Of a DNA stretch of 53,687 nucleotides, positions 27,642 through 36,896 are shown one piece after another. The notes below the pieces were generated by a model, which worked only from the letters and a program-made list of their open reading frames with translations, was not told the DNA's origin and did not search any database. How positions within the stretch are numbered: the stretch's first letter is position 1; each line of letters begins with the position of its first letter. The position numbers and the translations under genes were made by a program. The DNA comes from Actinomycetes bacterium (lineage in GTDB: Bacteria > Actinomycetota > Acidimicrobiia > IMCC26256 > Chersky-534), in contig JAODBH010000218.1 of the NCBI GenBank assembly GCA_025463865.1, positions 1 to 53,687 on the forward strand, written 5' to 3'.

Positions 27642-27713
27642 TCCGGGGTAGCTCAATGGCAGAGCAATCGGCTGTTAACCGATAGGTTGAGAGTTCGAGT
27701 CTCTCCCCCGGAG
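27642..27713 (+). tRNA. tRNA-Asn (GTT anticodon)
   Basis: Acceptor TCCGGGG/CCCCGGA, D-arm AGCTCAATGGCAGAGC, anticodon loop CTGTTAA, T-arm with GTTCGAGTC; discriminator G, no encoded CCA. Confidence 0.95.
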
Positions 27714-27715
27714 CA

Positions 27716-34103: not shown

Positions 34104-34949
34104 TCAGCTGTCGGTCCCGATCGTGATCAGCGCCGGGAGGAGCTCGATGACCGAGAACTCGTTCATCGATGTGCGGCGGAACGTGCGTTCGCCGCCCTGA
34201 CTGACGTCGCCGCGTGCGTGTTGCAGCGCGACGTTGTCCCACACGACGAGGTCGCCCAGTTGCCAGTGGTGCACGTAGATGTTTTCGTCCGCATACAGGT
34301 GCGCGAACAGGTCGTCGAGCAGCTGCGCGCTCTCATCACGCGCAAGCCCTTCAATGCTGTGCGCATGGAGGTCGGTCACGTAGAGCACCTCCTGGCCGTT
34401 GCGCGGGTGCTCGAACAGTGCGGGCCGCAGCATCTCGGGGTCGGTGCCGATGACGTCGAGGTCACGGGCCTTGAACTCGCGCAGGTTCGTCGACACCGGC
34501 AGCACGTGGTGCACCGAACGGCCCTCGACACGCGCGCGCAGGTCGGGCGGGAGCGTCGCGGCCGCGTGCGCGCTGCTCGCGAACAACGTCTCCGTGCCGC
34601 CCTCGGGAAGCGCGACCGCATACAGCGCGAGGCCATGGACGGGGGAGCGGGTGAACGAGAGATCGGAGTGGAATGGCAGCATGCCGCTGCCACCGCCACC
34701 GTCGATCATCTCGATGTTGGAGATGAACGCGGAGCGGTTGCCGTTCCCCATGTCGTCGATGAGGGGGCCGAAGAGTCCGACGAACGCCTCCTGAGCGGGA
34801 GGTTCGAACGACTGGCCGCGGATGAGCAGGAGGTGGTGCTCGTCGTACGCCTGGAGCAGCGTGGCGAGCTCGTCGGGCGTGGGGGCCTTCGTGGCGTCGA
34901 AGCCCCGGACCTCGACACCTAGCGCGGCAGAGAGAGGAATGAGTTCCAT
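34104..34949 (-). CDS. TauD/TfdA family alpha-ketoglutarate-dependent dioxygenase
   Basis: FHSDLSFTRSPVHGLALYAVALPEGGTETLFAS (HxD), GDLVVWDNVALQHARGDVSQGGERTFRRTSM (distal His/Arg). Confidence 0.88.
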   Translation of the reverse strand: MELIPLSAALGVEVRGFDATKAPTPDELATLLQAYDEHHLLLIRGQSFEPPAQEAFVGLFGPLIDDMGNGNRSAFISNIEMIDGGGGSGMLPFHSDLSFTRSPVHGLALYAVALPEGGTETLFASSAHAAATLPPDLRARVEGRSVHHVLPVSTNLREFKARDLDVIGTDPEMLRPALFEHPRNGQEVLYVTDLHAHSIEGLARDESAQLLDDLFAHLYADENIYVHHWQLGDLVVWDNVALQHARGDVSQGGERTFRRTSMNEFSVIELLPALITIGTDS

Positions 34950-34960
34950 GGCGGTCTCCC

Positions 34961-35002
34961 CCCGGAATCGATGCTCTTGCATGAATCGTGACAGATTCCG
35001 GG
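34961..35002 (-). promoter_or_regulatory. Inverted repeat in the tauD-like leader, touching the Shine-Dalgarno
   Basis: CCCGGAATC (34961-34969) and GATTCCGGG (34994-35002); nested ATGC-TCTT-GCAT at 34971-34982. Confidence 0.5.
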
Positions 35003-35045
35003 CAGGAAGTCACGGCTCCGTCCCGTGGGACCGCCCGGTACCCTT

Positions 35046-35084
35046 CCCCGCACGCCGCCCAGGCTCATGGGCGGCGGTGCGGGG
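35046..35084 (+). promoter_or_regulatory. 15-bp hairpin with one bulge that includes the first four bases of the tRNA
   Basis: CCCCGCACGCCGCCC-AGGCTCAT-GGGCGGCGGTGCGGGG. Confidence 0.6.
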
Positions 35085-35153
35085 GTGTAGCTCCGTGGTT
35101 AGAGCAGCGGACTCATAATCCGTCGGTCGGTGGTTCGATACCACCCGCCCCCA
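35081..35153 (+). tRNA. tRNA with CAT anticodon (elongator Met or Ile2; not initiator)
   Basis: Acceptor GGGGGTG/CGCCCCC, anticodon loop CTCATAA, T-arm GGTGG-TTCGATA-CCACC; G1-C72 pair excludes initiator; no encoded CCA. Confidence 0.93.
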
Positions 35154-35221: not shown

Positions 35222-35420
35222 ACGATCGTTCGCGGCGCTTCCCGTACGAGGTTCCGCTTCCAGCCAGAGTGGCCGGCCTCAGATAGACAGAAGCGAGATC
35301 GATCTCGACACCGGCCGCTCCCGGCCTCGAGCTCGGAACCGGTGCGCGCGGAAGTCGCAAAGTTCCCGTTCGGACGGCGAGCGCGCAGTCCGCTGTCCGA
35401 ACGGCCTTACCTCCTCCAGG

Positions 35421-36716
35421 TCAAAGCTCCGAGAGCCGCGTCGGCCGGCTGTATGGATCAACAGCTCGGGACGTGCCGAACGCAGGTACCTCGAATCGCT
35501 CGCCGACCTGTACGGGAACCGTTTCGACGCGCCGGCCGGTAGGCACGGTGTCGGTGTCGGAGTCGGGAGGCGGGTGGTGGCGCATGCGATGCAGCCGTAC
35601 CGTCACCAGCCCGAGCAGCACCCACAACAACGAGTTGCGCACCAGCACGATCGAGGCGGGAAAGCCATCGCCCGCGCCCAGCTCGCGCACGAGGTCGAAG
35701 CCGAGCGTGCTGAGTGCGCCGATCACGGCGGTGAGCCAGCCGACGGCTCGCTCGCCACCGGCTGCGGCGATGGCGGCGAACGGAAGCAGCCACGAGGCGT
35801 ATTGAGGCGAAAGGACCGTAGCGGTCACCAGCAGCGCGGCGATCACGCCTACGGAGGCAAGGCCGTCGACGATCCGGGGCTCGATTGAGCGGGTGCGGTT
35901 CGCGAGGACCCAGATGCCGGCCCCGAGCGCGAGTCCGAATAGCGGAAGACCGGTCCGGGCCCACGCGGGCGCGATACCCGTGCGCCACGCGCCAGCCTCG
36001 AAGTACGTGCGTCCCGAGAAGGCTGTGTGCACGAAGGCTCCGACCGTGCTCTCGATCTGCCAGCCACGGGCACCGCGGAACGTGAGCACCTGCACAGGCG
36101 CGTCGGAGCCACCGAACGCTATCCAGGCGCCGAGGCCCGCAATCCCGACGGTCGCAAACGCTATGAGCGATCGCCACGATTGACGGACGAGAAGCGTCGG
36201 TGCGAGCGCGATCGGCCACACCTTGGCGAAGCACGCGAGGGCCAACATTCCTGGTCCCGAAAGCAGCCGTCGCCGCCGAACCAACGCCATGCCGGTGACC
36301 GCCAGGAATACAGACAGCAGGTCCAGACGCAGGTAGAGGAACGGGTACCAGATGAACGCCAAGCCGATCAGGAGGTAGAGCACAGCGGCCTTGCGCCCCC
36401 ATCCCCATGCCATCACGGCCGCGATGGCGAGGTCGAGCACGACTTGCGACCACATAACGTTCACCGTCGACTCCCGCACCGTGCGGCCGTTCAGCGCGTC
36501 GATTGCGGCCACCGTCAGCGGCGGGTATTCCACCGGGAAGTCGCGGTACGGCGTTCCCGCGTGATTCGCGATCCGATGGAAGCGGCGCACGTCCCCGGGC
36601 AGCACAGTCTGCTTGCCCTGGGTCGCGTGGCCTTCGAGCGCCACCCCCACGATCACGAGGCGAACGAGGACGAGGGCCCCTACGAGGCAGGCGATCCTCC
36701 GAGGCGTCGCGACCAT
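35421..36716 (-). CDS. DUF2029/GT87-like membrane glycosyltransferase
   Basis: Multi-TM; YRDFPVEYPPLTVAAIDALNG, YLRLDLLSVFLAVTGMALVRRRR, VLSPQYASWLLPF. Confidence 0.82.
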   Translation of the reverse strand: MVATPRRIACLVGALVLVRLVIVGVALEGHATQGKQTVLPGDVRRFHRIANHAGTPYRDFPVEYPPLTVAAIDALNGRTVRESTVNVMWSQVVLDLAIAAVMAWGWGRKAAVLYLLIGLAFIWYPFLYLRLDLLSVFLAVTGMALVRRRRLLSGPGMLALACFAKVWPIALAPTLLVRQSWRSLIAFATVGIAGLGAWIAFGGSDAPVQVLTFRGARGWQIESTVGAFVHTAFSGRTYFEAGAWRTGIAPAWARTGLPLFGLALGAGIWVLANRTRSIEPRIVDGLASVGVIAALLVTATVLSPQYASWLLPFAAIAAAGGERAVGWLTAVIGALSTLGFDLVRELGAGDGFPASIVLVRNSLLWVLLGLVTVRLHRMRHHPPPDSDTDTVPTGRRVETVPVQVGERFEVPAFGTSRAVDPYSRPTRLSEL

Positions 36717-36896
36717 CTCACCGTATCTACCCCGGCGGCCGTGAGAACCGAGTGAGATTGCGACGGCCTCCACCTGGCACCTGCCGTTCAGGCCTCGGGC
36801 CGCCCCGTGCTTCGGGGCCCACCGTTCTCATTGGAGCCTCATGGTGTCGAAATAGCTCCGGGTGGATCATGACGATTCGGGAATCTTTTCCGTGCG

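Follow-up and report, generated by a model that had tools for sequence, protein, structure and literature searches.

A hairpin in the predicted 5′ leader of a probable tRNA-Ile(CAU) in an Acidimicrobiia genome, and its likely role as a guard of the tRNA fold

The tRNA gene and its surroundings

In the 53.7-kb window (the whole stretch of DNA that was analysed), a tRNA gene on the plus strand lies next to a divergently oriented dioxygenase gene, and a strong inverted repeat spans its 5′ end. The window is contig C191 of a source genome with 285 contigs, and its placement in Acidimicrobiia (Actinomycetota) follows from a genome of the same order (G029) whose tRNA and leader agree with those of an Acidimicrobiia MAG (L070 and L096 are identical). 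The features of the region, some of them predicted, are as follows.

34104 to 34949, minus strand: TauD-family dioxygenase, the divergent neighbour (Pfam PF02668, E 6.8e-47)
35036 to 35044, plus strand: extended -10 element CGGTACCCT, with its hexamer at 35039-35044 (9.3 bits; the next best site in the leader scores 0.4)
35045 to 35049, plus strand: C-rich discriminator TCCCC, of which C46-C49 are complementary to tRNA G1-G4 and predicted to be untranscribed
35050 to 35052, plus strand: predicted transcription start, about 35051, 7 nt past the -10 element, at the purines G50 or A52
35053 to 35076, plus strand: leader hairpin in the predicted pre-tRNA, 9 bp, with arms 35053-35061 and 35068-35076 and a 6-nt loop
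35081 to 35154, plus strand: tRNA gene with CAT anticodon, probably tRNA-Ile(CAU) (ARAGORN; Rfam RF00005, 65.4 bits)
35366 to 35404, no strand assigned: separate inverted repeat, 93% complementary, -29.4 kcal/mol, just past the end of the minus-strand gene 35421-36773

The listed open reading frame of tauD begins at 34982, and the ATG at 34949 has a better ribosome site before it. No Pfam family matches the "GT87-like" gene at 35421-36773 on the minus strand at E 0.001.

ARAGORN labels the tRNA as Met from its CAT anticodon. It is probably tRNA-Ile(CAU) of the predicted lysidine type rather than tRNA-Met, because the source genome has a separate and different elongator Met gene and the congener an initiator gene, the anticodon arm GGACTCATAATCC is common to the window tRNA and its closest orthologues in the order, and tilS is present in the source genome (TIGR02432, 146 bits, contig C207). 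The cloverleaf is also distinct from those of the elongator and initiator Met tRNAs. tRNA-Ile(CAU) is the lysidine tRNA and the substrate of TilS, and the assignment leans partly on the general character of that tRNA. The window tRNA is like it in its CAU anticodon, its anticodon arm and the tilS of its genome; it differs in having the acceptor strand GGGGGUG instead of the usual GGGGCCG, a long leader instead of a short one, and C14. This C at position 14 (window 35094) replaces a near-universal A, which is found in all the order-level orthologues listed, and elsewhere the universal bases of the D-loop and T-loop are present. C14 could be a real oddity, a sign of early gene decay, or an assembly error.

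Most tRNA-Ile(CAU) genes of the order have short leaders or lie 43-85 nt downstream of tRNA-Asn, and by this comparison of sequences the long leader at the window tRNA is a derived state. A few others in the order have long leaders with weaker hairpins of their own (e.g., L081 and L073/L078). No arms like those of the window were found in the order-level tRNA-Ile(CAU) upstream regions, so that the check set by the earlier note, that close relatives should keep the arms, comes out negative at the level of sequence. The congener has no intact copy of the window tRNA.

In the window, tRNA-Asn (27642-27714) lies 7.4 kb from tRNA-Ile(CAU), and the two genes are 43-85 nt apart in several relatives; the pair has therefore been split here, the Ile gene having its own promoter. 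A 48-nt sequence on congener contig C255 (L002:1501-1548 / L006:4688-4735) is 98% identical with the 3′ half of the window tRNA, beginning at A31 and lacking the 5′ half, and other parts of the same contig match the window at 40.6-52.3 kb. From its sequence, this fragment looks like an integration (att) remnant. An intergenic stretch of 25 nt on congener contig C151 (L005 / L062:9700-9724) is like window 35075-35099, which is the leader end plus the 5′ quarter of the tRNA, and has G at position 14. In several relatives (G013:C35, G007:C1, G029:C1, and G037:C81), an intact tRNA-Ile(CAU) gene is accompanied, at distances of 2.5 to 24 kb, by fragments of its 3′ half, and the gene looks like a hot spot of integration.

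Promoter, predicted start and leader fold

The inverted repeat at 35046-35084 (plus strand) comprises 15 bp in the DNA with one bulged G. C35046-C35060 pair with G35069-G35084 around a loop of 8 nt, or of 6 nt if A61 pairs with U68, and the coordinates, the single bulge and the 8-nt loop agree with those of the earlier note on this DNA. The RNAfold energy of 35040-35090 is -37.2 kcal/mol (z = -4.5), and 0 of 200 shuffles were as good. When 46-nt stretches were scanned at step 2 over the whole window (69% GC), the hairpin was the most stable fold, the runner-up reaching -33.2. The hairpin is thus not due to chance. Neither the source genome nor the congener showed the element a second time, so that there is no sign of a repeat family.

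A motif search of tRNA upstream regions in the source genome and its congener, from which the motif was learned, shows that the tRNA promoters share a common -10 motif, GSTANNNT. The only good -10 element in the window leader is CGGTACCCT; the hexamer TACCCT, which had been proposed as -10-like on inspection, does lie within this match to the tRNA motif (9.3 bits for the whole element). A sigma-70 scan requiring a -35 element returned no match, and the shared motif has no clear -35 in an upstream alignment slightly blurred by short leaders. A C-rich discriminator after the -10 element is general in the tRNA promoters here. We infer from the position of the -10 element that transcription starts near 35051, and the four C's able to pair with G1-G4 would therefore not be transcribed. 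Accordingly placed 3′ of these C's, the predicted start does not confirm the presence of the outermost four pairs (C46-C49 with tRNA G1-G4) in the RNA, and the four extra pairs in the DNA can be ascribed to the C-rich discriminator that follows the -10 element together with the G-rich acceptor strand. About 10 bp of the stem would be left from the predicted start, as the earlier note had expected (at least ~10 bp).

The computed leader alone has an MFE of -21.0 kcal/mol (z -4.0), exceeding the stability expected from its composition, and the upper stem of its hairpin has a pairing probability of 1.00. Between the hairpin and the mature 5′ end lies a spacer of 0-4 nt, which varies with start and register. 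In a scan of start sites, the leader hairpin (P 1.00) and the acceptor stem (P 0.98-0.99) form together for starts at 35049-35053; for the predicted start at 35050-35052, pairing of G1-G4 with the leader has P 0.000 and the acceptor stem P 0.99. Starts at 35058-35062, at which the 5′ arm is missing and the G-rich 3′ arm is kept, lower the acceptor stem to P 0.002-0.07, and the G-rich arm then invades the tRNA at its C-rich 3′ half. This collapse argues that the hairpin protects the tRNA fold. At the predicted start, then, the models have the hairpin holding the leader off the tRNA, which is the opposite of capture; they take no account of modifications, tertiary contacts or co-transcriptional folding. 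That the acceptor stem is lost in the models is also partly built in, because the G-rich arm exists only owing to the hairpin. A shuffle test is fairer than removal of the 5′ arm but weaker, and for the window gene alone it gives only P 0.05 and 0.16.

Hairpins in long tRNA leaders of Acidimicrobiia

Across four Acidimicrobiia genomes, the tRNA leaders, all of them inferred from the one -10 motif, fall into short ones (about 1-10 nt) and long ones, which usually have a hairpin immediately ahead of the RNase P site. Among the 59 tRNA genes with a good -10 element in the two congeners, the distance from this element to the mature 5′ end shows two peaks, one at 7-16 nt (38 genes, whose leaders are too short to fold) and one at 20-41 nt (21 genes). 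Nearly all the long leaders of the congeners carry a hairpin 0-7 nt before the tRNA, including those of Gly(CCC), Glu(UUC), Pro(CGG), Pro(GGG), Lys(CUU), Leu(GAG), Cys, and Val(CAC). The long leader of Ser(CGA) has a hairpin too, further back, and Leu(UAG) clearly departs from the pattern. No other scored leader has a hairpin as strong as that of the window. Two other families of the order (genomes G007 and G041) give a similar picture with more exceptions. At the equivalent position, other tRNA leaders carry hairpins of unrelated sequence, despite the lack of sequence conservation.

The excess of hairpins in long leaders is strong (Fisher P = 1e-14, n = 38). With the window gene and the congener set aside, a shuffle test of 22 long leaders found them to exceed their shuffled versions in stability (P = 1e-6). 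In tests of the same type, the 22 leaders also show less pairing with the tRNA body than their shuffled counterparts (P = 0.002), and the acceptor stem is formed more often (P = 0.003). All these P values are somewhat optimistic because some pooled leaders are related or repeated between sets. The sequence that precedes the -10 elements of the long-leader genes has no excess of hairpins (P = 0.73), and neither have short-leader genes (P = 0.43 and 0.09). The hairpin effect is local to long leaders.

The tRNA-Pro(GGG) genes were followed across the order. Their distance is either 8-13 nt without a hairpin or 22-30 nt with one, and the long leaders have a hairpin in 13 of 14 distinct leaders, the sequences being unrelated between lineages. 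Leader hairpins of unrelated sequence are thus gained and lost between orthologous tRNA-Pro(GGG) genes. In a small sample taken beyond the order, most Pro(GGG) leaders are short, and the long ones have a hairpin in most cases from GC-rich DNA and not in AT-rich ones.

The Arg(UCU) leaders (L018, L054, and L103, from three genomes of two families) run against this pattern, unlike most other long leaders: a pairing of about 12 nt with the tRNA body is predicted, and the acceptor stem has P 0.00. On these models they would be better candidates for a capturing leader than that of the window.

A probable guard in the leader, its alternatives and known systems

We consider it reasonably probable (about 0.6) that the hairpin is a self-contained guard in the pre-tRNA 5′ leader, and one of a class in the long leaders of Acidimicrobiia. 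The computations show the fold, the shared promoter motif, the enrichment in the class and, in the models, an acceptor stem that is lost once the 5′ arm is gone; the mechanism proposed here builds on them. The hairpin would sit between the transcription start at about 35051 and the RNase P site and would tie up a leader that is otherwise prone to mispair with the GC-rich tRNA, so that the acceptor stem can form; only 0-4 nt of single-stranded spacer would remain before the cleavage site, and RNase P would then cut off hairpin and spacer together. Long leaders would have been selected for insulation, and RNase P would tolerate the hairpin.

A kinetic brake is a tentative alternative with distinctly poorer prospects, in which the hairpin hinders the contact of the RNase P protein with the leader upstream of -3 and maturation is slow or conditional. 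A kinetic effect on RNase P is possible since the spacer is only 0-4 nt, leader stem-loops have been described as anti-determinants in natural substrates (PMC9433436), and no scored leader has a more stable hairpin than the window's; however, the same arrangement occurs on many different tRNAs of the class, which points to a general device more than to control of a single gene.

Capture of the tRNA 5′ end, as the earlier note had it, is improbable. The full 15-bp stem would form and compete with the mature 5′ end if transcription started at or before 35046, where the models pair G1-G4 with the leader at P 0.97-0.99 and leave the acceptor stem at P 0.01-0.02. The sole good -10 element, however, predicts a start downstream of the capturing bases, the arms are not conserved in orthologues, and the C-rich discriminator accounts for the C's. 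What stands of that proposal is a leader hairpin adjoining the RNase P site, and what does not, at the predicted start, is its mutual exclusion with the mature 5′ end. In the models the acceptor is captured for starts up to and including 35046 (acceptor P 0.02) and free from 35049 on (P 0.98), a flip over only three nucleotides. That a small shift in start-site choice thereby switches the maturation of tRNA-Ile(CAU) off or on is very improbable.

There is little chance that the element is a tailless terminator or a DNA palindrome, acting as a minus-strand stop towards tauD or as a tRNA/tauD operator. The hairpin is strong and GC-rich and lies between divergent genes, and tail-less terminators have been proposed in actinobacteria. 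Against this, neither strand has a U-tract and a terminator scan has no entry for the hairpin, so that the suggested stop for minus-strand read-through is not supported; the separate inverted repeat at 35366-35404 adjoins the end of the minus-strand gene 35421-36773 and is a better candidate for its terminator, and the hairpins in other tRNA leaders would be left unexplained. A functionless chance palindrome, for which the lineage-specific occurrence and the GC-rich window might speak, is just as hard to credit given the most stable fold in the window, the leader z of -4.0 and an enrichment across the class that only long leaders show.

If the hairpin is indeed a guard, a class with either very short or hairpin-bearing leaders would suggest that, in GC-rich genomes, guarding the tRNA fold outweighs leader accessibility. 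The rule is a simple one (a bare short leader, or a long leader with a hairpin) and is testable in any GC-rich bacterium whose start sites are mapped, and in vitro by standard RNase P assays. A literature search that covered few subscription papers returned nothing specific on leader hairpins in actinobacterial tRNAs; leader stem-loops are known, and their systematic use in long leaders appears to be unreported in the searchable literature.

Insulating hairpins are placed before structured RNAs in synthetic constructs. The window hairpin is like these in that a strong local hairpin would shield a downstream fold, and differs in being natural, transcribed from a tRNA promoter and presumably removed by RNase P. 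RNase P leaders are optimally single-stranded, and both leader stem-loops and leader-RCCA pairing hinder the enzyme and occur in natural substrates (PMC9433436). The pairing of the leader with the 3′ RCCA, which lengthens the acceptor stem, is likewise a case of leader pairing that affects RNase P (PMC9433436), whereas the window leader pairs with itself and its hairpin is predicted to prevent leader-tRNA pairing. The bacterial leader stem-loops have in common with the window hairpin a leader that folds on itself beside the RNase P site (PMC9433436). They are described as anti-determinants in some substrates, whereas the hairpins described here occur in nearly all long leaders of the genus, as well as in many from other Acidimicrobiia families, and are predicted to aid the folding of the tRNA.
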